From assembly GCA_020054965.1 (NCBI GenBank), contig JAIMZO010000027.1, forward strand, positions 1 through 11,307: a DNA stretch of 11,307 bases, given 5' to 3'. Shown here piece after piece: positions 1 through 11,307 of this stretch. The translations under genes were made by a program, and so were the position numbers. The stretch comes from Spirochaeta sp. GTDB taxonomy: Bacteria > Spirochaetota > Spirochaetia > Sphaerochaetales > Sphaerochaetaceae. The notes under the pieces are model-generated. The model was given only the letters and a program-made list of their open reading frames with translations. It made no database searches and was not told the DNA's origin. Within the stretch, counting starts at the first letter, position 1; the number at the start of each line of letters is the position of its first letter.

Positions 1-1
1 G

Positions 2-85
2 CTGGGAAAGCGAGGTGAGATACCCCGCCCCTTGGGCCAGGGCTATTGGTACCTTCCATTTGACTGTAATTGGCAGAGAAGATAG
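2..85 (+). other. Unassigned left edge, possible 3' end of an upstream reading frame
   Basis: The bases before the first gene hold no complete gene. One plus-strand frame is open from base 2 to a TAG at 83-85 (27 residues, containing the string RPLGQGYWYLPF), which would leave 38 bases before the ATG at 124. I do not recognise the peptide. A second frame is open from the left edge to about base 190 but overlaps the next gene. The octamer ATGAAACC occurs at 87 and again at the real start at 124. No promoter or terminator is convincing here. Confidence 0.2.
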
Positions 86-123
86 AATGAAACCATCTGA
101 GTACGGATTTGAGGAGAGAAAGC

Positions 124-1302
124 ATGAAACCAACACTTTTGGTAATGGCAGCTGGTATGGGAAGCCGCTATGGCGGCATCAAGCAGATTGACAGCGTAGG
201 AAACCATGGAGAGACGTTGTTGGATTATGGTGTCTACGATGCCCATCGTAGTGGCTTTGAGAAAGTTGTCTTTATCATCCGTAAGGATATTGAGAAGGAT
301 TTCCGGGAACGTTTGTTCGACCGGATTGCAAACAATATGGATGCCACCTATGTTTTCCAGAGCCAGGATGCACTCCTCACTGAGGAGCAGAAACGACTTG
401 CAGCAAACAGAAAGAAACCCTGGGGAACGATCCATGCAGTTCTCTGTGCAGAGAATACGGTAAAGGAGCCCTTTGCTGTCATCAATGCAGATGACTACTA
501 TGGCAGGGAGGCCTTTGCTATCCTGGCAGGGCACCTTGCGAACCTGGAACCAGGAAGCAAAGAGCATGCAATGGTTGGGTATGTCCTCGATCATACGATG
601 AGTAAGAGTGGAACAGTCAGCCGTGCTATCTGCAATGTTAAGGATGGCTATCTTGTAAGCATGGAAGAGCATACCAAGATTGGATATGAAGGGGATAAGG
701 TGGTCAGCCACCAGAGTTCTGGTGACATCGTGCTTACTGGTAAGGAGTGGGTTTCCATGAATTTCTTTGGATTTTCACCCACTGCTTTTGAAAGCTTCAA
801 CAGCTACTGGGACGCCTTCATCAAGGATCATATCACCAGTGAAAAGACTGAGTGTTATCTACCGAATGGTGCCAGCAATATTGTAACAACCGGGGAAGGG
901 AAGATGCGCTTCTATACCACCCAGGAGAGCTGGTTCGGAATGACGTACAGTGAGGATAAGGATATTGTGAAGAATGAGCTTGCCAAGAATCTTCCCTATG
1001 GAAAGCAACGTGAGCTTGAGATTGCCCGTGCGCTTGCTACCGACCCAAAGCTGCTTTTCTTGGATGAACCGGCAGCCGGCATGAACCCCCAGGAGACTGA
1101 CCATCTGATGTCCACCATCAGAAAGATCAGGGACCTGGGAATTACGGTTGTTCTGATCGAGCATGACATGAAACTGGTGATGAACATCTGTGATACCATC
1201 ACTGTCCTCAACTATGGGCAGAAACTAGCCCAGGGGACTCCCCATGAGATCAAGAAAAACCCGAGTGTCATCGAGGCCTATCTCGGTAAGGATGAAGAAT
1301 GA
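124..1302 (+). CDS. Chimeric ORF: nucleotidyltransferase fused in frame to the C-terminal part of LivG
   Basis: The start is ATG 124, with AGGAG at 112-116 seven bases upstream; an in-frame TTG at 109 overlaps that site and is unlikely. The ORF has 392 codons. Residues 1 to about 284 are a nucleotidyltransferase of the sugar-phosphate/NDP-sugar type: the nucleotide-binding signature [11 protein letters not shown] is at 11-21, the metal-binding region NADD at 121-124, and a late family motif [10 protein letters not shown] at 270-279. From about residue 285-289 the protein becomes the C-terminal third of the ABC ATPase LivG: signature loop LPYGKQR at 290-296, Walker B LLFLDEP at 310-316, D-loop AAGMNPQE, and switch histidine H347 in LIEHD. 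The ATPase half lacks Walker A and the Q-loop, so it cannot hydrolyse ATP alone. The transferase half has lost only its last few residues and might keep activity. The end overlaps livF by ATGA. I infer a deletion fusion or an assembly error rather than an evolved bifunctional enzyme. Confidence 0.85.
976..1302 (+). pseudogene. livG: Truncated livG remnant (branched-chain amino acid ABC transporter ATPase)
   Basis: This is the second half of the chimeric ORF. LivG proteins are about 250 residues long and couple ATP hydrolysis to import of leucine, isoleucine and valine through LivH/LivM, paired with LivF. Only the last 103 or so residues remain: the signature motif [15 protein letters not shown], Walker B, D-loop, H-loop (IEHDMKLVM) and the typical tail GTP-x-E-I-x-x-N-P-x-V-I-x-A-YLG. 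The N-terminal RecA-like part with Walker A is missing, and livH and livM are not in the window. The surviving reading frame is undamaged, with no internal stop or frameshift, and the ATGA overlap with livF is the normal operon arrangement. The truncation is therefore very recent or an artefact. Confidence 0.8.
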
Positions 1303-2057
1303 AAGAGTTGCTCACGATAGATGACATTTCTGTTTCCTATGGGAACATCAAGGCACTGAAACAGGTCAGTATGCATGTCAATGAAGGTGATATCGTCTGC
1401 CTCATTGGAGCGAATGGAAGTGGTAAGAGTACCTTGCTTAAGTCCATCGTGGGGCAGGAGCCTTTGGATTCCGGCTCCATCACCTTTGATGGAGAGGAGA
1501 TCTGCAGGGCTAAGAATGGTGGAGCCAAAGAAGGCAAGCGCTCAAAGATACTCACCACTGACTTGATTGCAGCAAAGGGAATCAGCTTGGTTCCTGAAGG
1601 TAGACGTGTCTTTGCAGATATGACCGTGGAAGAAAACCTTGATATGGGTGCCTTCCTTGTACGTGATGATGCCCTGATTGCGGAACGCAAGGAGTCCATG
1701 TATGACTTCTTTCCCATTCTCGGAGCAAGAAGAAGGCAGAAGACCCGATCCCTTAGTGGGGGTGAACAGCAGATGATGGCCATAGCCAGGGCTCTGATGA
1801 GTGGGCCACGCCTGATCCTTCTGGACGAACCTGGACTCGGTCTCGCCCCATTGGTAATTGCAGACATCTTCGAGAAGATTGCCTTGATCAACCAGCAGGA
1901 CAAGGTAACGGTCTTTCTGGTGGAACAGAACGCCCGCATGGCACTGAAGGCATCCTCTGAAGGGTATGTCATGGAGAATGGTAGGATTGTACTCAGTGAT
2001 GCATCCTCCGCACTTTTGGAGAATGAGAAGGTACGGGCAGCCTATCTGGGCGAATAA
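1299..2057 (+). CDS. livF: Branched-chain amino acid ABC transporter ATP-binding protein LivF
   Basis: A complete 252-residue ABC ATPase of the LivF subfamily, the cytoplasmic energiser of high-affinity branched-chain amino acid (or related amide/urea) uptake. Walker [10 protein letters not shown] is at residues 37-45, the LivF-typical VPEGRRVF at 98-105, signature LSGGEQQ at 152-158, Walker B LILLDEP at 172-178, and FLVEQNA where LivF proteins normally have Q in place of the switch histidine. The protein is somewhat longer than the usual 230-240 residues because of a basic insertion at about 69-88, between the first beta sheet and the helical region. ATG 1299-1301 overlaps the upstream TGA (ATGA), implying translational coupling to livG, which here is only a remnant. 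Without intact LivG and the permeases, transport from this locus should fail unless partners are encoded elsewhere. Confidence 0.92.
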
Positions 2058-2061
2058 TTAC

Positions 2062-2090
2062 TGGAAATTCACGATGGCATGAATTATAGT
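2062..2090 (+). promoter_or_regulatory. Candidate sigma-70 promoter with operator-like dyad before the CBS-ACT gene
   Basis: In the 57-base gap after livF, TGGAAA at 2062-2067 (4 of 6 to the -35 consensus) and TATAGT at 2085-2090 (5 of 6 to the -10) are separated by exactly 17 bases. An inverted repeat, AATTCA at 2066-2071 and TGAATT at 2080-2085, fills the spacer and touches both elements, as a repressor site would. The transcript would start near 2097, just ahead of the ribosome binding site. There is no terminator after livF, so read-through is also likely. This is a pattern-based call only. Confidence 0.4.
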
Positions 2091-2114
2091 GTGCTTAGAT
2101 GGTAGGAGATCCAT

Positions 2115-2759
2115 ATGATTATCGAACGAAGAATGACGCGCAATCCTGTTACAGCTACTCCCGATATGTCCATCGCGGAGGCCTCTACCTTGATGAAACA
2201 GGAGAAGGTTCACCGACTTCCTGTGCTTGATAAGGAGAAGCGGCTGGTTGGTATCATAACCGAAAAGGATATCTTGTATGCCACACCTTCTCCTGCGACA
2301 AGTCTTTCTATCCATGAGATGGCTTACCTGTTGAGCAAGCTCACGGTCAAGAAGCTCATGAGCAAGAACGTGGTTTCCATCACCAAGGACACAACAGTTG
2401 AGGAAGCTGCCCGCATGAGGGTTGATCAGGACCTGAGCAGTCTTCCAGTGCTTGAAGGACAGCAGTTGATCGGTATTGTGACAAAGAGTGATATGTTCAA
2501 GATTTTGCTTGAGCTCTTTGGTGCACGTCATTTCGGAATTCGCCTAACCTTTGTGGTTGAAGATAAGCCGGGAACCATTGCCAAGATCAGTCAGGTTTTG
2601 AGTGAGGCTGGAATTGACATTATCACCTTTGGTACGTTTATGGGAACTGATCCCACCAATGCCATCTGTACCATCAAGGTTCAAGGAGCATCTATCAGCA
2701 AGGTAGTGGAGCTCATGAAGCCCTATGTATCTCAGTTGCTGGATGTTCGGGAGGTCTGA
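2115..2759 (+). CDS. CBS-CBS-ACT domain protein (AcuB-like regulatory protein)
   Basis: A 214-residue soluble protein. It has two CBS repeats, at about residues 6-55 (MTRNPVTATPD ... LVGIITEKDIL) and 80-130 (LMSKNVVSITKD ... LIGIVTKSDMF), followed by an ACT domain at about 141-205 (RLTFVVEDKPGTIAKISQVL). CBS pairs bind adenosine nucleotides and ACT domains bind amino acids, so the family architecture suggests a sensor linking energy state to an amino acid. The same layout is found in AcuB-type proteins, but the true target is unknown. Its place directly behind livF suggests that the ligand could be a branched-chain amino acid (inference). The start is set by TAGGAG at 2103-2108, six bases before ATG 2115. 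A stretch at 60-76 links the CBS repeats. The stop is immediately followed by the next start codon. Confidence 0.85.
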   Translation: MIIERRMTRNPVTATPDMSIAEASTLMKQEKVHRLPVLDKEKRLVGIITEKDILYATPSPATSLSIHEMAYLLSKLTVKKLMSKNVVSITKDTTVEEAARMRVDQDLSSLPVLEGQQLIGIVTKSDMFKILLELFGARHFGIRLTFVVEDKPGTIAKISQVLSEAGIDIITFGTFMGTDPTNAICTIKVQGASISKVVELMKPYVSQLLDVREV

Positions 2760-3713
2760 GTGCCGAAGAAGAAGAAAAAGAAGGCTTCGAATACAAGCGA
2801 GACGGCTGGAAACAGCCGTCTTGTAGTTGATTCCGATGCCTACAAGCCGTTTGAGCATATCAAGGAAGTAAAGAAACAGCCTGTGAAACAGAAGCCCCCC
2901 ACCAGGCAACGCAAAGAGCCCTTGGTGCTTGGATATGATCCAAAGGCAAACTTCGGTGATATCCTTGCCACTTGGGAACAGACAGGTGAACTGGGTGGGG
3001 TGACAAAGCGGATGAAGAGCCACAGCAAGGTAGCGGTGGAGAAATCCTTTGGTGAGATTCTTGCAGAATGGGAAGGTGAGAAACAAGCTGCCAAGAACAA
3101 GAAGGAAGAACCGGTTTCCATCAAGAAGAGCAAGGCCTATGAGCCTAAAAAAGATTTTGCCTCACTCCTGGAGGAGTTTGAGGGGAGTGAGAAACCCAAG
3201 AAGAAACGGGGAAAGCTTGTCTCTGATCAGAGAAGGAGAGAACGTGAAGACCTTCCCTTGCAACCTACCCATGACATGCAGGAAGCGCTTGACCAGGAAC
3301 GTGACAGCACGGTGAGCTGGTCATTCGCAGATACCTACAAGCAATGGTCAACAGTGAGTGATGAGGAAGCAGCCATCAAACGGGCACAGAAGGAAAAGCG
3401 TGAAGCAAAAGCGGACCCCTATACCATTTCCGCCCTCCGTGCCATGGAACCTCAATCCACCTTGGACCTTCATGGGATGAAGGTGGTGGAAGCTGAACAA
3501 GCAACTGCTGATTTCCTGCGCTCAGCGAAGGAGCAACGACTCCTCAAGGTGGCAATCATCACGGGAAAAGGATTGCATAATGACAAGGGATATTCCCTGT
3601 TGAAAGAAGCTGCACTTTCCCAGATACGGACCAGCAAGGTGGTACGTGAAGCATACACCCCAAAAGCCCAGTATGGGGGAAGTGGTGCTATCTGGATCAT
3701 CATGAAACGATGA
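2760..3713 (+). CDS. Smr-domain protein with lysine-rich, motif-repeat N-terminus
   Basis: A 317-residue protein with a GTG start directly after the preceding stop codon and GGGAGG at 2749-2754 as ribosome binding site. The C-terminal 85 or so residues are a stand-alone Smr domain, the fold found at the end of MutS2: LDLHG at 235-239, TGKG at 268-271 (where many Smr proteins have HGxG), and the terminal YGGSGAIWI motif. Smr domains bind nucleic acid and often nick DNA or cleave RNA, for example at collided ribosomes. The exact substrate here is not evident. Residues 1-230 look largely disordered and very charged, starting with six consecutive lysines at 3-8, and carry repeated hydrophobic motifs around 65-73, 97-105, 133-141 and 189-196. 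There is no signal peptide or membrane segment. Co-transcription with the CBS-ACT gene is likely from the zero-base spacing. Confidence 0.85.
   Translation: MPKKKKKKASNTSETAGNSRLVVDSDAYKPFEHIKEVKKQPVKQKPPTRQRKEPLVLGYDPKANFGDILATWEQTGELGGVTKRMKSHSKVAVEKSFGEILAEWEGEKQAAKNKKEEPVSIKKSKAYEPKKDFASLLEEFEGSEKPKKKRGKLVSDQRRREREDLPLQPTHDMQEALDQERDSTVSWSFADTYKQWSTVSDEEAAIKRAQKEKREAKADPYTISALRAMEPQSTLDLHGMKVVEAEQATADFLRSAKEQRLLKVAIITGKGLHNDKGYSLLKEAALSQIRTSKVVREAYTPKAQYGGSGAIWIIMKR
2952..3347 (+). repeat. Four short linear-motif repeats in the Smr protein
   Basis: Within the Smr protein, the motif F-[GA]-[DES]-[IL]-L-x-x-[WF]-E appears as FGDILATWE (residues 65-73), FGEILAEWE (97-105) and FASLLEEFE (133-141), with a weaker fourth copy FADTYKQW (189-196). 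The first and third copies are preceded by the similar strings YDPKANFG and YEPKKDFA. Spacing is 32, 36 and 56 residues, separated by lysine/glutamate-rich linkers. The repeats are visible at protein level only. They look like amphipathic helical docking motifs on a flexible tether. Confidence 0.65.
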
Positions 3714-3734
3714 TTCCATACACTTGGACACACG

Positions 3735-3766
3735 AAAAAGCCGGGTTCTCAAAGGGAATCCGGCTT
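3735..3766 (-). terminator. Rho-independent terminator of infA
   Basis: On the minus strand a 12-base-pair stem (AAGCCGGATTCC pairing with the partly G-U-paired opposite arm, plus-strand arms 3738-3749 and 3755-3766) with a 5-base loop is followed by TTTTT (plus 3735-3739). It starts 18 bases beyond the infA stop. Read from the plus strand, the hairpin is followed only by CTCCTCTT, so it would be a weaker terminator for the convergent Smr gene. Confidence 0.85.
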
Positions 3767-3783
3767 CTCCTCTTGATGTGGTG

Positions 3784-4002
3784 TTAACGCTCGCGGTAAA
3801 TGATACGACCTTTGGTCAAATCATAGGGAGAAAGTGCTACACGCACGGTATCACCAGGTACGATTCTGATGTAGTGTTTGCGCATCTTGCCCGAAAGATG
3901 GGCAAGAATGACATGTTCATTCTGCAGTTCCACACGGAACATGGTATTGGGAAGAGCTTCGCGTACGATGCCTTCCACTTCGATTGCTTCTTCTTTGGCC
4001 AC
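3784..4002 (-). CDS. infA: Translation initiation factor IF-1
   Basis: A complete 72-residue IF-1, a single S1/OB-fold domain that binds the A site of the 30S subunit during initiation together with IF-2 and IF-3. The whole length matches the family: [19 protein letters not shown] at the start, then [18 protein letters not shown] and the ending [10 protein letters not shown]. The start codon is GTG at 4002-4000, with GGAGG four bases upstream (plus 4007-4011); no ATG alternative exists. It appears to be a single-gene unit with its own near-perfect promoter upstream and a strong terminator downstream, not placed in a ribosomal protein operon. It converges with the Smr gene. Confidence 0.97.
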
Positions 4003-4035
4003 AAAACCTCCAAATATTTGCTTAAAAGCAAGAAA

Positions 4036-4064
4036 ATTATATGCACTAGGTCAAAATGTGTCAA
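4036..4064 (-). promoter_or_regulatory. Consensus sigma-70 promoter of infA
   Basis: On the minus strand TTGACA (plus 4059-4064) and TATAAT (plus 4036-4041) are both exact consensus hexamers, separated by the optimal 17 bases. The expected transcript start is near plus 4029, giving a leader of about 27 bases that contains the GGAGG site. The -35 box begins eight bases after the symporter stop codon at 4073. A small dyad, TTGCTT-TT-AAGCAA, lies at plus 4018-4031 around the expected start. Confidence 0.9.
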
Positions 4065-4072
4065 CAGTGTCC

Positions 4073-5464
4073 CTATGCGATAAAAATATCCCAATATCCT
4101 TTCAGGAAGATTCCTAAAATGATTGCCGGCAACACATACTGGAAGTATGGACGAAGGATCCTGGGGAATCGCAACCCATTCGACCCACTGTCTGCCTCGG
4201 CTATGAATGTATCCCAACCCCAACCGTACTTCCAGGTACAGTAGATGGTAAAGAAGAGGGATCCAAGGGGAAGCAGGGTAGAACTGACAATGAAGTCCTC
4301 AAGATCCAACACCCCGGTGCCTGGTCCAAGTGGCTGGAAACCAGAGAGTACATTGAATCCAAGGATGCAAGGGAGGGAGAGCAATGCAATGGCAATGCCA
4401 TTGAAGAGGGTTGCTCGCTTTCGGTCAACACCCTTGGCATCGATCCAGAAACTGATGATATTCTCAAAGACAGCAATAAGAGTACTCAATGCTGCAAAGC
4501 TCATGAAGAGGAAAAACAGGGACCCCCATAGTCTTCCACCGGCCATCTGGTTGAAAATATTGGGGAGTGTGATGAATATTAAGGAAGGACCAGCATCAGG
4601 CTGAACTCCGAAGGCAAATGCAGCTGGGAATATAATGAGCCCGCTGGCGAGCGCTACAAAGGTATCCAGGCCGATGATGCGTACAGCCTCGCCGGTAAGA
4701 CGGTGTTCCTTCCCGATATAGGAGCCAAAAATTGAGATGGAACCGATACCGAGACTCAAGGTGAAGAACGCTTGGCCCATTGCTGCATATATTGTTTCCG
4801 AGAGCCCGCTTTCAACCATCTTGGAAAAGTCCGGTACCATGTAGAACTTCAACCCTTCTCCAGCTCCATCAAGGAGCATGCTGTTGAATGCGAGTACCAG
4901 CATCAATAGGAGTAGGCCGATCATCATCTTCTTGGTGATTTTCTCAACCCCGTTCTGCAGTCCCTTGGCTACAGGAAGGAGGCCCAGGATAACAGCAAGG
5001 ATCATCCAGAACGTCATGCTCCCTGGTTTTCCCAGCATGCTGGAGAAGAAACCACCCACTTGGTCTGCATTCAATCCAGTGAAGTCACCTTTGATGGTAT
5101 GTACAAAATAGGAGAGGAGCCAACCGGTTATGGTTGTATAGAACATCATCAGCACATAGTTTCCAATGATGGCAAGCTTGCCATAGACATGCCAAGGTTT
5201 TTTCTTGGGGGTCAATGTTTCGAATGTGCGTCCAATATTGGTTTGACTCGCTCTCCCGATGGAAAGCTCCATAACCATGACAGGAAGGCCCAGCATGAAC
5301 AGGAACAAGACGTAGATCAGCACAAATGCTGCTCCTCCATACCGACCTGCAATATAGGGGAAACGCCATACATTCCCAAGACCTATGGCACATCCTGCTG
5401 ATAGAAGAATGAAGCCCAATCTGCTCGCCAGTGCTTCACGTGTTTTCGTAGCGCCTACAGTCAT
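4073..5464 (-). CDS. Sodium-dependent amino acid symporter, LeuT/SNF (NSS) family
   Basis: An integral inner-membrane transporter of 463 residues, close to the length of bacterial 11-12-helix NSS proteins such as MhsT and Tyt1. These couple sodium entry to import of an amino acid. TM1 carries the unwound motif GCAIGLGNVWRFPY (24-37), where A26 and N31 align with the LeuT sodium ligands A22 and N27 and R34 with the extracellular gate arginine. TM2 follows with GLPVMVMELSIGR. The TM6 motif AAMGQAFFTLSLGIGS and a TM8-type segment FAALSTLIAVFENIISFW are also present. The substrate cannot be read from the sequence. I chose ATG 5464 because SRLGFIL follows at the usual distance and GAGAG lies seven bases upstream; ATG 5485 and GTG 5521 are in-frame alternatives. 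It is divergent from glyA, so serine, glycine or another amino acid is a reasonable guess. No terminator separates it from infA. Confidence 0.92.
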   Translation of the reverse strand: MTVGATKTREALASRLGFILLSAGCAIGLGNVWRFPYIAGRYGGAAFVLIYVLFLFMLGLPVMVMELSIGRASQTNIGRTFETLTPKKKPWHVYGKLAIIGNYVLMMFYTTITGWLLSYFVHTIKGDFTGLNADQVGGFFSSMLGKPGSMTFWMILAVILGLLPVAKGLQNGVEKITKKMMIGLLLLMLVLAFNSMLLDGAGEGLKFYMVPDFSKMVESGLSETIYAAMGQAFFTLSLGIGSISIFGSYIGKEHRLTGEAVRIIGLDTFVALASGLIIFPAAFAFGVQPDAGPSLIFITLPNIFNQMAGGRLWGSLFFLFMSFAALSTLIAVFENIISFWIDAKGVDRKRATLFNGIAIALLSLPCILGFNVLSGFQPLGPGTGVLDLEDFIVSSTLLPLGSLFFTIYCTWKYGWGWDTFIAEADSGSNGLRFPRILRPYFQYVLPAIILGIFLKGYWDIFIA

Positions 5465-5569
5465 ATGATTTCTCTCTTTCTCCATTGTATTGAGTTGTTC
5501 CTTGCAGAAGACAACCGTCACATTCTGAAGTATGATACGGGAAAATGCAACCTAAAATTGCCTAGTGCG

Positions 5570-5598
5570 TTGACAGAGTCACCCCACAAGGGCAAGAT
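5570..5598 (+). promoter_or_regulatory. Candidate promoter for glyA-gcv in the divergent intergenic region
   Basis: The 168-base gap between the symporter start and glyA holds an exact TTGACA at 5570-5575. At a 17-base spacing lies only CAAGAT (5593-5598), a poor -10 with 3 of 6 matches. A short dyad, TGAC-AGA-GTCA at 5571-5581, overlaps the -35 box and could be an operator. On the minus strand TATCAT (plus 5532-5537) is a possible symporter -10, without a good -35. I see no glycine riboswitch fold in this gap. Confidence 0.35.
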
Positions 5599-5632
5599 AC
5601 GAAGTAACATAGCACGCAAAGAGGTATAACAC

Positions 5633-7162
5633 ATGTCCAGTGGAACAGCATTGCAAGCGTATTTGGCAGAAGCCGAAGAGATGAATGGCCCTATGGTGGC
5701 CTATACTGCAGCCCTTGACCAGATTGCACAGGTCGACCAGGGTGTTGCAGGTCGCATCGTCAATGAGCTGAAAGATCAGCGGACCCACTTGAAGTTGATT
5801 GCAAGTGAGAATTTCTCCTCAATCGCTTCCCAGCTTGCAATGGGCAATTTGCTCACCGACAAGTACAGTGAAGGGTTTGCATATCACCGCTTCTATGCTG
5901 GTTGCGACAACGTTGACGCCATAGAAGCAGCAGCAAGCGAGTATGCTTGTAAGCTTTTTGGGGCAGAGCATGCCTATGTTCAACCTCATAGCGGGGCCGA
6001 TGCAAACTTGGTTGCATATTGGGCAATTCTCAATACCCGTATCCAGGTTCCTGCTTTGGAGGAGCTCGGCATTCCCAACCCCAGCAATCTTGATCGAGAG
6101 CAATGGGATGCAGTTCGAGAGAAACTGGGTAACCAACGACTGTTGGGTCTCGATTATTACTCTGGAGGACACCTGACCCATGGCTACCGCCAGAATATTT
6201 CAGCCCAGATGTTTGATGCCTATACCTATACGGTTGATGAGAAGAGTGGTCTGCTTGACTATGATGCGATCGAGAAGATGGCACAGGAAATCAAGCCGTT
6301 GATTCTGTTGGCAGGATATAGTGCCTACCCCAGAAAGATCGACTTCAAGCGGATGAGTGAAATTGCCCATAGCGTTGGTGCAGTATTCATGGTGGATATG
6401 GCTCACTTTGCCGGCTTGGTTGCAGGAAAAGTCTTCACCGGTAATTATGACCCTGTACCGTGGGCTGATGTGGTGACCACCACAACCCATAAGACTCTAC
6501 GTGGACCACGAGGTGGAATGGTGCTTTGCAAGAAGGAGTTCTCAGAGAGTGTCGACAAGGGGTGCCCTCTGGTACTCGGCGGACCACTTCCGCATGTTAT
6601 GGCTGCAAAAGCCATTGCATTCAAGGAAGCACTTGATCCTTCCTTCCAGGCCTATGCACAGAGTATCGTGAAGAATTCCGAGGTCTTGGCAAAAGCATGC
6701 CTTGATGAAGGTATCCCTGTTGCAACAGGGGGTACGGACAACCACCTGATGCTTCTTGATGTCAGGCCCTTTGACCTGAACGGAAGGCAAGCTGAGACAG
6801 CCCTCAGGGAGTGTGGCGTTACCCTGAACAGGAATGCTCTTCCCTTCGACCCCAACGGTCCTTGGTACACGAGTGGGCTTCGTATTGGAACCCCTGCTGT
6901 GACGACACTCAAGATGGGCGAATCAGAAATGAAAGAGATTGCTTCAATCATTGCGTTGGTGCTTAACCACACCAAACCGCTGATTCTTACCAAGGGTGCT
7001 AATGCCGGTCAACCCAGCAAGGCTAAAGCAGTGACCGAGGAAGGGGCGATGAGAGAAGCCCAGGGTCGTGTTCTGGCCTTGCTGGAGAAGTTCAAACTCT
7101 ATCCCGAGTTGGATCTTACCTTTTTGGAGAAACATTTTCCACTCGACAATAACGAGCGGTGA
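5633..7162 (+). CDS. glyA: Serine hydroxymethyltransferase (long form)
   Basis: A PLP enzyme that interconverts serine and tetrahydrofolate with glycine and 5,10-methylene-THF in the cytoplasm. The 509 residues exceed the usual 415-430. Compared with the common form there is an N-terminal extension of about 35 residues and an insertion at about 134-168, after VQPHSGADANLVAYWAIL and before YYSGGHLTHG; both fit the long SHMT type of spirochaetes and chlamydiae (family knowledge from memory). Landmarks are KLIASENFSS (54-63), YAGCDNVDAIE (88-98), VDMAHFAGLVAG (254-265), the PLP lysine K287 in TTTTHKTLRGPRGG, and LRIGTPAVTT near the C-terminus. GAGG at 5621-5624 lies eight bases before ATG 5633. 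It heads the gcv cluster, 30 bases before gcvH, and is divergent from the symporter. It shares methylene-THF and glycine with the cleavage system. Confidence 0.95.
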   Translation: MSSGTALQAYLAEAEEMNGPMVAYTAALDQIAQVDQGVAGRIVNELKDQRTHLKLIASENFSSIASQLAMGNLLTDKYSEGFAYHRFYAGCDNVDAIEAAASEYACKLFGAEHAYVQPHSGADANLVAYWAILNTRIQVPALEELGIPNPSNLDREQWDAVREKLGNQRLLGLDYYSGGHLTHGYRQNISAQMFDAYTYTVDEKSGLLDYDAIEKMAQEIKPLILLAGYSAYPRKIDFKRMSEIAHSVGAVFMVDMAHFAGLVAGKVFTGNYDPVPWADVVTTTTHKTLRGPRGGMVLCKKEFSESVDKGCPLVLGGPLPHVMAAKAIAFKEALDPSFQAYAQSIVKNSEVLAKACLDEGIPVATGGTDNHLMLLDVRPFDLNGRQAETALRECGVTLNRNALPFDPNGPWYTSGLRIGTPAVTTLKMGESEMKEIASIIALVLNHTKPLILTKGANAGQPSKAKAVTEEGAMREAQGRVLALLEKFKLYPELDLTFLEKHFPLDNNER

Positions 7163-7192
7163 TGGTAGCATTGACGTTGGTGGAGGCAATCA

Positions 7193-7576
7193 ATGAGTAA
7201 GGTTATAGAGAATCTGCGCTACAGCAAGGATCATGAATGGGTTCGCATTGAGGGTGACTTGGCCTATGTTGGGATTACAGACCATGCACAACATGAACTG
7301 GGTGAGATTGTCTTTGTTGAGCTTCCTCCCCTCGGTGAGCGATATCGCAAGGGAGAAGAGATATCCACCGTAGAGAGTGTCAAGGCAGCTTCTGCCATCA
7401 TCAACCCAATTGAGGGTGTGGTGAAAGAGGCGAATGAGGACCTTGATGGTTCTCCTGAATTGATCAATGAGGATTGTTATACTCATCATCTCTATATTCT
7501 TACCTCATTCTCAGAGGATGATTATGGTGAATTGTTGGATGCAGAGGCATACCAAGCATATCTAGAGACTCTATAG
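7193..7576 (+). CDS. gcvH: Glycine cleavage system H protein
   Basis: A 127-residue lipoyl carrier that shuttles the aminomethyl group from the P protein to the T protein and then to lipoamide dehydrogenase. The barrel-sandwich lipoyl domain is complete: LRYSKDHEWVRIEGD at the N-terminus, GITDHAQHELGEIVFVELP, and the lipoylation site K64 in VESVKAAS. The C-terminal part has the typical N-x-D-x-x-x-SPELIN string. GGAGG at 7182-7186 stands six bases before ATG 7193, 30 bases after glyA. Length and motifs are normal for the family. The gene is followed by a hairpin that may lower expression of the P-protein genes behind it. Confidence 0.96.
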   Translation: MSKVIENLRYSKDHEWVRIEGDLAYVGITDHAQHELGEIVFVELPPLGERYRKGEEISTVESVKAASAIINPIEGVVKEANEDLDGSPELINEDCYTHHLYILTSFSEDDYGELLDAEAYQAYLETL

Positions 7577-7593
7577 AGAGAACACAACAATGA

Positions 7594-7620
7594 GCCGCCG
7601 GATTCTGGCGGCCTTTGTTT
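7594..7620 (+). terminator. Terminator-like hairpin between gcvH and gcvPA
   Basis: GCCGCC at 7594-7599 and GGCGGC at 7607-7612 form a perfect 6-base-pair GC stem with a 7-base loop, followed by CCTTTGTTT. The U tract is interrupted by G, so termination should be partial. It sits inside the gcv operon with no obvious new promoter after it, which suggests an attenuator or mRNA 3'-end stabiliser that yields more H protein than P protein. It could equally be a processing site. Confidence 0.5.
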
Positions 7621-7641
7621 GTCCATGTCCTGGAGGCATAG

Positions 7642-8997
7642 ATGATTTATCCCTATATTCCCCATACTGATGAAGACCGAAAGATCATGCTGGAAGCTAT
7701 CGGCCTTTCTTCAATGGAGGAGCTTTTTTCTGGTTTGTCGGAGGATATCCTACTCTCTGATTCAGTCCCGATCAGTCAGGGAAGGACTGAAGACGAGGTG
7801 CAGCGAATGATTGATTCCATTGCACAACGCAATGTACGTGGCATACCATTCCTGGGGTGTGGTTGTTATGACCATATTGTTCCCTCCACGGTTGAGGCGC
7901 TTTCCAGTTTGCCCTCATTCGTGACCGCATACACGCCATACCAGGCAGAGATGAGCCAGGGCTTACTCGAGGCAATCTATGAGTTCCAGAGCATGGTTTG
8001 TGAGATCACTGCAATGGATGTGGCAAATGCCTCACTCTATGATGGCGCAAATGCCGCAACTGAGGCTGCTTCATTGATGGTGAGTGCAAAGAGGCATGCA
8101 TCGGTGGTGTTGGTCTCCTCTACCATCCATCCCTTTACCTTGCAGGTCTTGCAGACCTGGGCAAAAGGGACGGGAAGAACGCTGAGGATGGTTGCTGAGA
8201 AGGATGGGGTGGTAGACATCTCTTTGCTTCCTTCTCTCTTGGATGCAGGCTGTGCTGGTTTGATTGTCCAGAGTCCTAACCGTTATGGCCTCTTGGAATC
8301 GTATGAGGGTGTGGCAGAAATACTACATGAGCAAAAAGCTCTTCTGGCCATCTCCAACGATCCGCTGTCTCTTGCCATGCAGAAATCTCCTGGCGGATGG
8401 GGAGCTGATGTTGCCATTGGTGACACGCAGTCCCTGGGGCTTCCCCTTGCCTATGGTGGACCGAGTTGTGGGTATATGGCGGTAAAGGAAGCGCTTTTGA
8501 GAAAGCTTCCCGGTCGCTTGGTTGGTATGAGTGAAGATGCAAAAGGAAGGAAAGGATTCACCCTGACGTTCCAGGCAAGAGAGCAACACATCAAGCGGGA
8601 GCGGGCGACGAGCAACATCTGTTCCAATCATGCGCTTGCGGCACTCATGACAACCATCCATCTCTCCAGTCTTGGATGGGACGGTATGGTCGAAGCAGCA
8701 AACCAAAGCTATGCAAAGGCACATTACCTGGCATACCATCTGGCCCAGCTTCCGGGGATGGCCGTGGTTTGGGACAAACCCTTCTGGTGTGAATTCCCCT
8801 TGGTTTTCTCCGATCCCAAGCGCATGAGAAAGTTCATGCAGGAGCTTCGCAATGAAGGGATTTTCGCAGGGGTGAGACTCTCAACGTTGACCCGACAGGT
8901 CAAGGATGAGTTGGTTCTCCTTGTAGCAGTAACAGAGAAGCGTAGCCGTGAGGAGCTGGAGCTCTATCTGGCCGCTGCACGGAGGGTGATGAAATGA
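7642..8997 (+). CDS. gcvPA: Glycine dehydrogenase (decarboxylating) subunit 1
   Basis: The alpha half of the split P protein, which decarboxylates glycine and passes the aminomethyl group to the lipoyl arm of GcvH. It has 451 residues, normal for the family (about 440-450). It opens with the characteristic MIYPYIPHTDEDRKIML and shows GIPFLGCGCYDHIVPSTVEAL, FVTAYTPYQAEMSQGLLEAIYEFQ (with the conserved YTPYQ) and DVANASLYDGANAATEAA, then GPSCGYMA near residue 273-280 and the REQHIKRERATSNICSN segment at about 314-330. The PLP lysine is on GcvPB, as expected. GGAGG at 7632-7636 lies five bases before ATG 7642. The 3' end overlaps gcvPB by ATGA, so the two subunits are likely made in equal amounts by translational coupling. 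Confidence 0.95.
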   Translation: MIYPYIPHTDEDRKIMLEAIGLSSMEELFSGLSEDILLSDSVPISQGRTEDEVQRMIDSIAQRNVRGIPFLGCGCYDHIVPSTVEALSSLPSFVTAYTPYQAEMSQGLLEAIYEFQSMVCEITAMDVANASLYDGANAATEAASLMVSAKRHASVVLVSSTIHPFTLQVLQTWAKGTGRTLRMVAEKDGVVDISLLPSLLDAGCAGLIVQSPNRYGLLESYEGVAEILHEQKALLAISNDPLSLAMQKSPGGWGADVAIGDTQSLGLPLAYGGPSCGYMAVKEALLRKLPGRLVGMSEDAKGRKGFTLTFQAREQHIKRERATSNICSNHALAALMTTIHLSSLGWDGMVEAANQSYAKAHYLAYHLAQLPGMAVVWDKPFWCEFPLVFSDPKRMRKFMQELRNEGIFAGVRLSTLTRQVKDELVLLVAVTEKRSREELELYLAAARRVMK

Positions 8998-10445
8998 GAG
9001 AGCCGCTATTGATTGATCAATCAAAACAAGGAAGAAAAGCGTACTGTTATCCTCCTCTGGATCTGCCCAAGGGGTTTTCCCAGACGCTTCCTCCTCTTCC
9101 TGAATCCATCCAGCGAGAGCAACCTGCCCGTCTGCCTGAAGTATCTGAACTGGATGTGGTAAGACATTTTACCCGGCTCTCCACGATGGCACATGGGGTG
9201 GACAATGGAATGTATCCACTTGGTTCCTGTACGATGAAATATAATCCCAAGCTCAGCGAGCATATTGCAAAAATGGAGGCATTTACCAAAATCCATCCCC
9301 TGCAGGATGTCTCGACAACGCAGGGCAGCCTTTCGATCATGTTCAACCTTCTGGAGGACCTTTCCTCCATTACCGGGATGAAATGGGGGACGCTGCAACC
9401 CTTGGCAGGGGCTCATGGTGAATATACCGGCTTGAAAATGGTCAAGGCCTACTTCCAGAAGCGCGGTGAGACCGGCCGTACCAGGATACTCATCCCTTCA
9501 AGCGCCCATGGTACCAATCCCGCCAGTGCAATGGTGAATGGATTTGAAGTGCTAACCATTGGAGCCAATGAGAAAGGCCAAGTGGACCTGGATGATCTTG
9601 AGGCAAAGCTTGATGATTCTGTTGCTGCCGTGATGATGACCAACCCCAATACCCTGGGGATTTTTGAGCAGGATATTCTCATCATCAGCAAGATGGTTCA
9701 TGCTCATGGGGCAATGCTGTACTACGACGGGGCCAATATGAATGCCATATTGGGTATGGCTACCCCGGGTGAGATGGGCTTTGATGTAGTGCATCTTAAT
9801 CTGCACAAGACCTTCGCCACCCCACACGGGGGAGGAGGCCCAGGTAGTGGGCCGGTGATGGTGAATGATTCACTGAGGCCATTTCTTCCAAAGCCGGATA
9901 TCCAACTTACCGACAGTGGGTATATCCTTGATTGGGAGCATGAGGACTCCATTGGAAAAGTCAGTATGTTCTGGGGGAACTTCCTGGTACTGCTCAGGGC
10001 ATATGTCTATATCCTGAGAATGGGAAGTGATGGCTTGCGGTCAGCAAGTGCCCATGCCGTCCTGAATGCAAACTATGTGGCAAAGCGGTTGGCTGATGTG
10101 TGTGAGATACCCTATGGCACCCAATGCATGCATGAGTTTGTCATCAGTCTGGAGGAGTACAGGCAAAAGTACGGAATCAGGGCCCAGGATGTTGCCAAGG
10201 CTCTCATCGACAAGGGATACCATCCGCCGACCATGTACTTTCCTTCCTTGGTCAGTGAATCGCTCATGATTGAACCGACCGAGAGCGAAAGCCTCGAGAC
10301 GATGGAAGCTTTCATCCTTGCATTCCGTTCCGTCCTTGCACAGGCAAAGGAGGATCCTGGGTATGTGAAAGGTGCTCCCTATTCCACCCCTGTAGGCCGC
10401 TTGGATGAGGTGAAGGCGGTCAAGGAACCAAATCTTCGCTACTAA
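8994..10445 (+). CDS. gcvPB: Glycine dehydrogenase (decarboxylating) subunit 2
   Basis: The beta, PLP-carrying half of the split P protein, partner of GcvPA. It has 483 residues, the usual size. Landmarks are the N-terminal region with LPEVSELDVVRHFTRLS, the substrate-site segment MYPLGSCTMKYNPK (73-86), QPLAGAHGEYTGL (135-147), IPSSAHGTNPASA (167-179), DGANMNAILG (245-254) and the cofactor lysine K272 in LNLHKTFATPHGGGGPGSGP. The C-terminal end carries EPTESES, typical of the family. ATG 8994 overlaps the gcvPA stop, with GGAGG at 8981-8985 eight bases upstream. The following 56 bases contain no clear terminator, so read-through into the hydantoinase gene is possible. Neither gcvT nor an lpd gene follows. 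Confidence 0.96.
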   Translation: MREPLLIDQSKQGRKAYCYPPLDLPKGFSQTLPPLPESIQREQPARLPEVSELDVVRHFTRLSTMAHGVDNGMYPLGSCTMKYNPKLSEHIAKMEAFTKIHPLQDVSTTQGSLSIMFNLLEDLSSITGMKWGTLQPLAGAHGEYTGLKMVKAYFQKRGETGRTRILIPSSAHGTNPASAMVNGFEVLTIGANEKGQVDLDDLEAKLDDSVAAVMMTNPNTLGIFEQDILIISKMVHAHGAMLYYDGANMNAILGMATPGEMGFDVVHLNLHKTFATPHGGGGPGSGPVMVNDSLRPFLPKPDIQLTDSGYILDWEHEDSIGKVSMFWGNFLVLLRAYVYILRMGSDGLRSASAHAVLNANYVAKRLADVCEIPYGTQCMHEFVISLEEYRQKYGIRAQDVAKALIDKGYHPPTMYFPSLVSESLMIEPTESESLETMEAFILAFRSVLAQAKEDPGYVKGAPYSTPVGRLDEVKAVKEPNLRY

Positions 10446-10466
10446 CCACGACTTACGCTTTTTGCT

Positions 10467-10495
10467 TTGCAGTCTATCCAATCCTGAGGTATCCT
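10467..10495 (+). promoter_or_regulatory. Weak candidate promoter giving a leaderless hydantoinase mRNA
   Basis: TTGCAG at 10467-10472 (3 of 6) and TATCCT at 10490-10495 (4 of 6) are 17 bases apart, which would put the transcript start at about 10502, the A of the start codon. This would explain why no well-spaced ribosome binding site is visible. The match is modest and could be chance. Confidence 0.2.
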
Positions 10496-10501
10496 TAAGG
10501 T

Positions 10502-11307
10502 ATGAATAGAATATTAATACAAGACGGATTGCTCGTTGATACGGAATGGACCAGGCATGCTGACATCTTGATCGAGGATTCGAAGATTGTGCATATCGCA
10601 GCAAAAATCGATCCAGACACCTTGCCTGAGGGAACAGAGATTGTACAGGCTGAGGATATGTGTATATTGCCGGGTATCATTGATGCCCATACACACTATC
10701 ACTTGGTAAGCAGGGGGACGGTCACCGCTGACTCCTTTGAGGAAGGCAGCCGTTGTGCAGCCTTTGGGGGGGTCACCACGGTGATTGATTTCGCCGATGA
10801 TGACAAAAAAGGAAATCTTGCCGCCTGCACCAAGGCGAGAAGTGCAGCCATGGGTAAGGAGATGGCAGTCGATTTCTCTTTGCATCAAGGCCTGTACGCG
10901 TATAGAGAGAGCTTGGAAGAGGAACTGGTGGAGCTCAAGAAAACCGGGGTGAAGGTTATCAAGATGTTCACCACCTACAAGGACGTAGGCTATCTGGTCG
11001 ACAATCAGGAAGAGTTGCGCAAGATCTTTGCATTATGCAAGAAGCACGACCTCCTGGTCAGTGTCCACTGTGAGGATGATGCAACCATCCAGAAAGTCAA
11101 TAGCAACTATACCGGTCCCTATACTCCTCCTGCGCATGCAGTTCTCCGCCCAAGTGAAGCAGAGGCGCGAGGTATTGAGACAGTAGGAAAATTGGCCTTG
11201 GAGCTCGATATGCCACTGTATGTGGTACATCTTTCGAGCAAGGCTGGACTGCAGAAGGTGAGGGAGCTACGGGCAAAGGGCCTCTGGGTAATTCTTGAGA
11301 CAACACC
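10502..11307 (+). CDS. hydA: Dihydropyrimidinase / hydantoinase, 3' end beyond the window
   Basis: The first 268 residues of a cyclic amidohydrolase (amidohydrolase superfamily) that opens hydantoin, dihydropyrimidine or similar cyclic ureide rings. The binuclear metal centre is readable: H63 and H65 in IIDAHTHYH, the lysine expected to be carboxylated at K154 in VKVIKMFTTYKD, H189 in SVHCEDDA and H243 in YVVHLSS. These match in spacing the D-hydantoinase set (H58, H60, K150, H183, H239). The last aspartate lies beyond the edge. The start is ATG 10502; an in-frame TAA at 10496-10498 excludes anything upstream. AAGG touches the ATG and GAGG is 12 bases away, so initiation is not of the usual kind. 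The substrate is unresolved: dihydropyrimidinase, phenylhydantoinase and related ureide hydrolases share all visible motifs. The window edge cuts it, so nothing suggests real truncation. Confidence 0.88.
   Translation, partial: MNRILIQDGLLVDTEWTRHADILIEDSKIVHIAAKIDPDTLPEGTEIVQAEDMCILPGIIDAHTHYHLVSRGTVTADSFEEGSRCAAFGGVTTVIDFADDDKKGNLAACTKARSAAMGKEMAVDFSLHQGLYAYRESLEEELVELKKTGVKVIKMFTTYKDVGYLVDNQEELRKIFALCKKHDLLVSVHCEDDATIQKVNSNYTGPYTPPAHAVLRPSEAEARGIETVGKLALELDMPLYVVHLSSKAGLQKVRELRAKGLWVILETT

Follow-up and report, generated by a model that had tools for sequence, protein, structure and literature searches.

A nucleotidyltransferase-LivG chimeric frame in a Spirochaeta contig, most probably the product of a false join at a 20-bp word shared by two loci

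In the window, the stretch of 11,307 nucleotides of Spirochaeta sp. DNA analysed here (contig JAIMZO010000027.1), one open reading frame couples a nucleotidyltransferase to the 3' part of livG. The chimera is truly present in the letters, but we conclude that it most probably has no biological reality. In all likelihood it is a false join, made in a chimeric assembly or library molecule at a 20-bp word shared by two distant loci, and the case for this is strong but short of proof.

Architecture of the chimeric frame

The frame runs on the forward strand from an ATG at 124 to a stop codon at 1300-1302 and encodes 392 residues, or 397 if the alternative TTG start at 109 is used. Public data hold intact proteins identical to each of its parts: for residues 1-288 this is P0001, a nucleotidyltransferase of 302 residues, and for residues 283-392 it is P0121, a LivG of 259 residues, of which they form the last 110 (150-259); the KNELAK stretch at the join is compatible with both. 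The nucleotidyltransferase loses just its last 13 residues (VSSGYYPDKLWKL), with K289 replaced by N, and the LivG part begins at KNELAK, seven residues ahead of the degenerate signature LPYGKQ. The first-pass annotation had recognized a nucleotidyltransferase-LivG chimera in one frame, which the open frame and the identity to the two intact proteins bear out. The borders that it drew, a nucleotidyltransferase up to about residue 284 and LivG from 289-290, beginning exactly at the ABC signature, need correcting accordingly: the nucleotidyltransferase is nearly complete.

For the right part, Pfam recovers the BCA_ABC_TP_C domain (PF12399) and only positions 88-136 of the ABC_tran profile, while the best NCBIfam match is LivG (NF008449), with residues 282-389 of the window's protein aligned to profile positions 146-254 of 255. 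For the left part, the NTP-transferase models of Pfam match below their cut-offs and the NCBIfam matches to the nucleotidyltransferase (GalU, Arch_glmU) are likewise all sub-cut-off. When compared with P0121, the chimera has neither the Walker A motif (GPNGAGKT, from residue 36 of P0121) nor the Q-loop (TFQN, from residue 83), an absence already noted from the sequence; hence, it lacks both motifs expected of LivG as a functional ABC ATPase.

Given an open frame, one might consider a functional fusion protein maintained by selection, but this is scarcely credible: its ABC part is devoid of Walker A and Q-loop, its nucleotidyltransferase is missing a tail with the Y[YF]P..LW motif found in 108 of the 120 best-listed protein matches, and the fusion was found neither in 26 genomes of the genus nor among the listed protein matches. 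The absent motifs and the lack of recurrence among the genomes and listed proteins searched lead us to reject a designed or selected fusion, and on the former we concur with the earlier annotation.

Table 1. Coordinates of the chimera, its two arms and the flanking features in the window
Feature	Position	Strand	Basis
Chimeric open reading frame, 392 aa	124..1302	+	Open reading frame list, Pfam, comparison with parent proteins
Left arm, nucleotidyltransferase locus (upstream sequence and residues 1-288)	1..989	+	92.9-96.4% nucleotide identity, six genomes
20-bp word AAGAATGAGCTTGCCAAGAA, join inside	970..989	+	Overlap of left and right alignment sets
3' part of livG (LivG residues 150-259), without Walker A and Q-loop	970..1302	+	Protein comparison with P0121
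livF, intact, ATGA overlap with livG end	1299..2057	+	Pfam; 93.0-95.8% identity to six genomes
Native right flank, colinear with relatives' livG locus	1303..11307		Alignments; domains by Pfam

Provenance of the two arms

The window was aligned to its six best-matching genomes, which belong to the genus of Sphaerochaeta sp. S2 (G001, G002, G022, G025, G026 and G027, with G002 being the genome of S2 itself). The left alignment, to an intact nucleotidyltransferase locus, begins at position 59 in G022, at 2 in G026 and at 1 in the other four. The right alignment, from 970 onward, matches the intact livG locus of all six with 92.4-94.6% identity: it is a single alignment over 970-11307 in G001, G025, G026 and G027, comes in two pieces over 970-10809 in G022, where about 1.9 kb of additional G022 sequence separates them and the fetched stretch ends, and goes no further than 4149 in G002, whose contig ends there. 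For the coding parts on their own, DNA identity to these genomes is 92.7-96.0% on the left and 95.8-98.1% on the right; hence, neither parent match is due to chance.

At locus L001 the gene after the intact nucleotidyltransferase is membrane-protein-like and runs the other way, and no liv gene was seen in the 6 kb on either side of the nucleotidyltransferase. Locus L031, conversely, has genes reading as livK, livH and livM, then livG and livF, and then the same genes as the window, with no nucleotidyltransferase upstream of livG. The right flank of the window encodes, in order, livF, a CBS-ACT gene, a Smr-domain gene, IF-1, a transporter, serine hydroxymethyltransferase, gcvH, two glycine dehydrogenase genes and the beginning of a hydantoinase-like gene; this last name and that of the transporter are presumptive, and the others were identified by Pfam. 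These contexts uphold the earlier view that the livG side is native, with 10.3 kb colinear with relatives and the ATGA overlap with livF present at 1299-1302, and that the left arm is foreign.

Certain other features of the right flank may be noted. Serine hydroxymethyltransferase, the glycine cleavage H protein and the two glycine dehydrogenase subunits lie in a row at 5633-10445 (by Pfam), and gcvT was not seen within the window. The translation initiation factor IF-1 (72 residues, GTG start, PF01176) is encoded on the reverse strand at 3784-4002, between the Smr-domain and transporter genes. Just upstream of it, at about 4064-4093 of the window, G022 has about 1.9 kb of extra sequence (L122, about 6748-8607) that is absent from the window and from G001, G025, G026 and G027.

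We also examined the codons in which the window alone differs. The truncated LivG part has three synonymous and no non-synonymous window-only codons in 103, the intact livF has nine and two in 251, and the nucleotidyltransferase part has 10 and six in 282. All six non-synonymous changes of the last are also found in the intact P0001 and therefore predate the join. There is no decay on either side of the join, and a real event would consequently have to be very recent.

The join and the disposition of the parent genes

In all six genomes position 989 is the last of the left alignment and 970 the first of the right one, an overlap of exactly 20 bp with nothing lost or added at the join; the breakpoint is resolvable no finer than this interval. 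The proposal that the join ran through a short shared word such as GAGCTTGCCAAG proved apt, since the 20-bp common word contains that 12-mer. Both parent genes read the word in the same frame, as KNELAK, and the join therefore stays open without any selection. Among the 26 genomes of the genus, the exact word occurs in both genes in two (G002 and G026), in one gene in five and in neither in the other 19, and all nine exact copies sit at livG or nucleotidyltransferase places. At least one of the two copies differs in four of the six best-matching genomes; the window itself suggests that both parent genes of its own strain carried the whole word. In a random 3.3-Mb genome with equal base frequencies, chance alone should yield about 10 pairs of identical 20-mers, and such a word is thus an ordinary opportunity for a false join.

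Seven of the 26 genomes have both genes on one contig (G007, G008, G010, G015, G022, G025 and G026), and in every one of these the genes occupy opposite strands at a distance of 1.4-1.9 Mb along the contig. A simple deletion cannot join genes in this disposition, whereas an inversion, a more complex rearrangement or a technical join each could. One of the two origins offered by the first-pass annotation was a deletion taking out livH, livM and half of livG, which would run between direct repeats and of which a shared short word is the usual footprint. Such a deletion would start from genes in the same orientation on one replicon, with the left parent upstream; what we observed instead is a liv locus without an upstream nucleotidyltransferase in L031 and, in seven of seven genomes, a nucleotidyltransferase on the opposite strand and more than 1 Mb away. 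The deletion is already contradicted by this gene order and orientation, unless the strain of the window had undergone an earlier rearrangement of its own, and we reject it as exceedingly improbable. The other origin offered, an assembly join between two loci, is the better supported of the two, and the first-pass interpretation as a whole is partly supported.

A real, recent rearrangement would most simply be an inversion of more than 1 Mb between two oppositely oriented copies of the 20-bp word. It would fuse the nucleotidyltransferase to the 3' part of livG and leave the 5' part of livG joined to the nucleotidyltransferase tail elsewhere. The inverted disposition of the genes in all seven genomes allows exactly such a join, and in G026 the word is indeed an inverted repeat; moreover, a very recent real inversion would look identical in this sequence. 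We nevertheless consider it unlikely, although it is the chief rival of a false join. A homology of 20 bp is short for RecA-dependent recombination, and livG would be disrupted by the inversion, but no decay is visible in the LivG part. All nine exact copies of the word in the 26 genomes lie at their ordinary places, with no reciprocal junction, and of the three proteins of fitting length among 120 listed matches none ends in the nucleotidyltransferase tail. The full scenario, in which a very recent inversion of this size acts through a 20-bp inverted repeat inside two protein genes, yields an in-frame hybrid and turns one branched-chain amino acid transporter off in one strain, is improbable. 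Were it true, an inverted repeat of 20 bp would be shown to suffice for turning round a megabase-sized portion of a spirochaete chromosome.

Searches for the fusion and for its reciprocal

The same fusion was sought in related genomes, as had been suggested, with a 221-base probe across the join, and it was found in none of the 26 genomes of the genus: the listed matches cover either the left part, ending by base 110 of the probe, or the right part, from base 89 or later. It was equally absent among the 120 listed matches of each of two protein searches, these being the best 120 of about 8000 scored candidates. In 139 genomes of the family (136 with a match) a protein search gave no fusion among the stronger matches, which are those listed; with 13 candidates scored per genome, this absence is weaker than that at the genus level. 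Five of the family matches (G001, G011, G022, G072 and G136) reach residues 308-340, but do so through stop codons and were rejected. No exact match to the join occurs in viral_contigs, an unlikely place for it, and this says little.

Four of the listed matches clearly exceed the parent proteins in length, and upon inspection none proved to be this fusion: P0097 runs on into sequence without visible LivG, P0102 has its extension at its start, P0220 is a double ABC protein resembling LivG and LivF, and in P0236 a TraG-like ATPase is coupled to the 3' part of LivG. The last of these (547 residues, a single sequence on one 8.4-kb contig) passes straight from the TraG-like ATPase into the LivG part without a Walker A motif and is itself likely to be another false join inside livG.

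For the reciprocal product, the 5' part of livG was joined to the nucleotidyltransferase tail and used as a query. Only three of the 120 listed protein matches were of fitting length (P0241, P0243 and P0266), and an exact scan of the 20-bp word revealed no reciprocal junction in the 26 genomes of the genus. P0243 ends in NLPDRKSVV and P0266 in NLPYG. The best candidate, P0241, ends in SSLWKAT, which by hand reading is the next frame of livG after one added base. This protein (163 residues, on an 80-kb contig) is a LivG shortened by a one-base shift just past the KNELAK stretch, and the shift is probably a sequencing indel.

A false join as the preferred explanation

Three observations together argue for a false join. 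Each side of the chimera is colinear with a different, distant locus of its relatives; the join lies within a word common to both loci, exact in both genes in two of the 26 genomes, and no other change accompanies it; and the fusion is absent from independent genomes (none of 26 in the genus) and from the two sets of 120 listed proteins. Against it stands the exact word being present in both genes in only those two of the 26 genomes. We infer that the join is technical in nature, and the following steps would account for it. An ordinary nucleotidyltransferase gene and an ordinary liv operon, both from a single Sphaerochaeta-like genome or population, would have been stitched together at the 20-bp word present in each. 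This could have happened in the assembly graph or, alternatively, in a chimeric molecule of the library or of an amplification. The two arms may stem from one strain or from two close ones.

The length of the word bears on which technical step may have been involved. An overlap of 20 bp is long for a molecular chimera that arises by chance. It also lies at, or barely under, the lowest k in common use among short-read assemblers, so that a pure k-mer collapse would call for a small k, a strain variant or a chimeric molecule.

A false join of this kind serves mainly as a caution: where both genes share the frame of a word, an open frame across the join is no proof of a real fusion. Through such joins databases acquire a fusion protein and a gene neighbourhood that are both spurious.

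Comparison with known systems

Relative to LivG, the ATPase of a high-affinity ABC transporter for branched-chain amino acids (NF008449), the chimera is without the N-terminal 149 residues that bear the Walker A and Q-loop motifs; even the intact parent P0121 reaches 293 bits where the curated cut-off is 362 and is thus a LivG by best match only. Relative to the spirochaete nucleotidyltransferase family, in which P0001 is named either NDP-sugar synthase or UTP-glucose-1-phosphate uridylyltransferase depending on the source, residues 1-288 are identical and the last 13 are replaced.

As to the join itself, a review states that graph assemblers can join disparate parts sharing k-mers (PMC7299287), and a study of multiple displacement amplification (MDA) counts 406 of 475 chimeric junctions as inverted, with 69 of these between places more than 10 kb apart (PMC1855051). 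The likeness is to this broad class as a whole. With chimeric contigs and MDA or library molecules alike, the chimera shares its lack of recurrence among the genomes and listed proteins searched, and the joining of two distant, inverted loci without loss at a short shared word.
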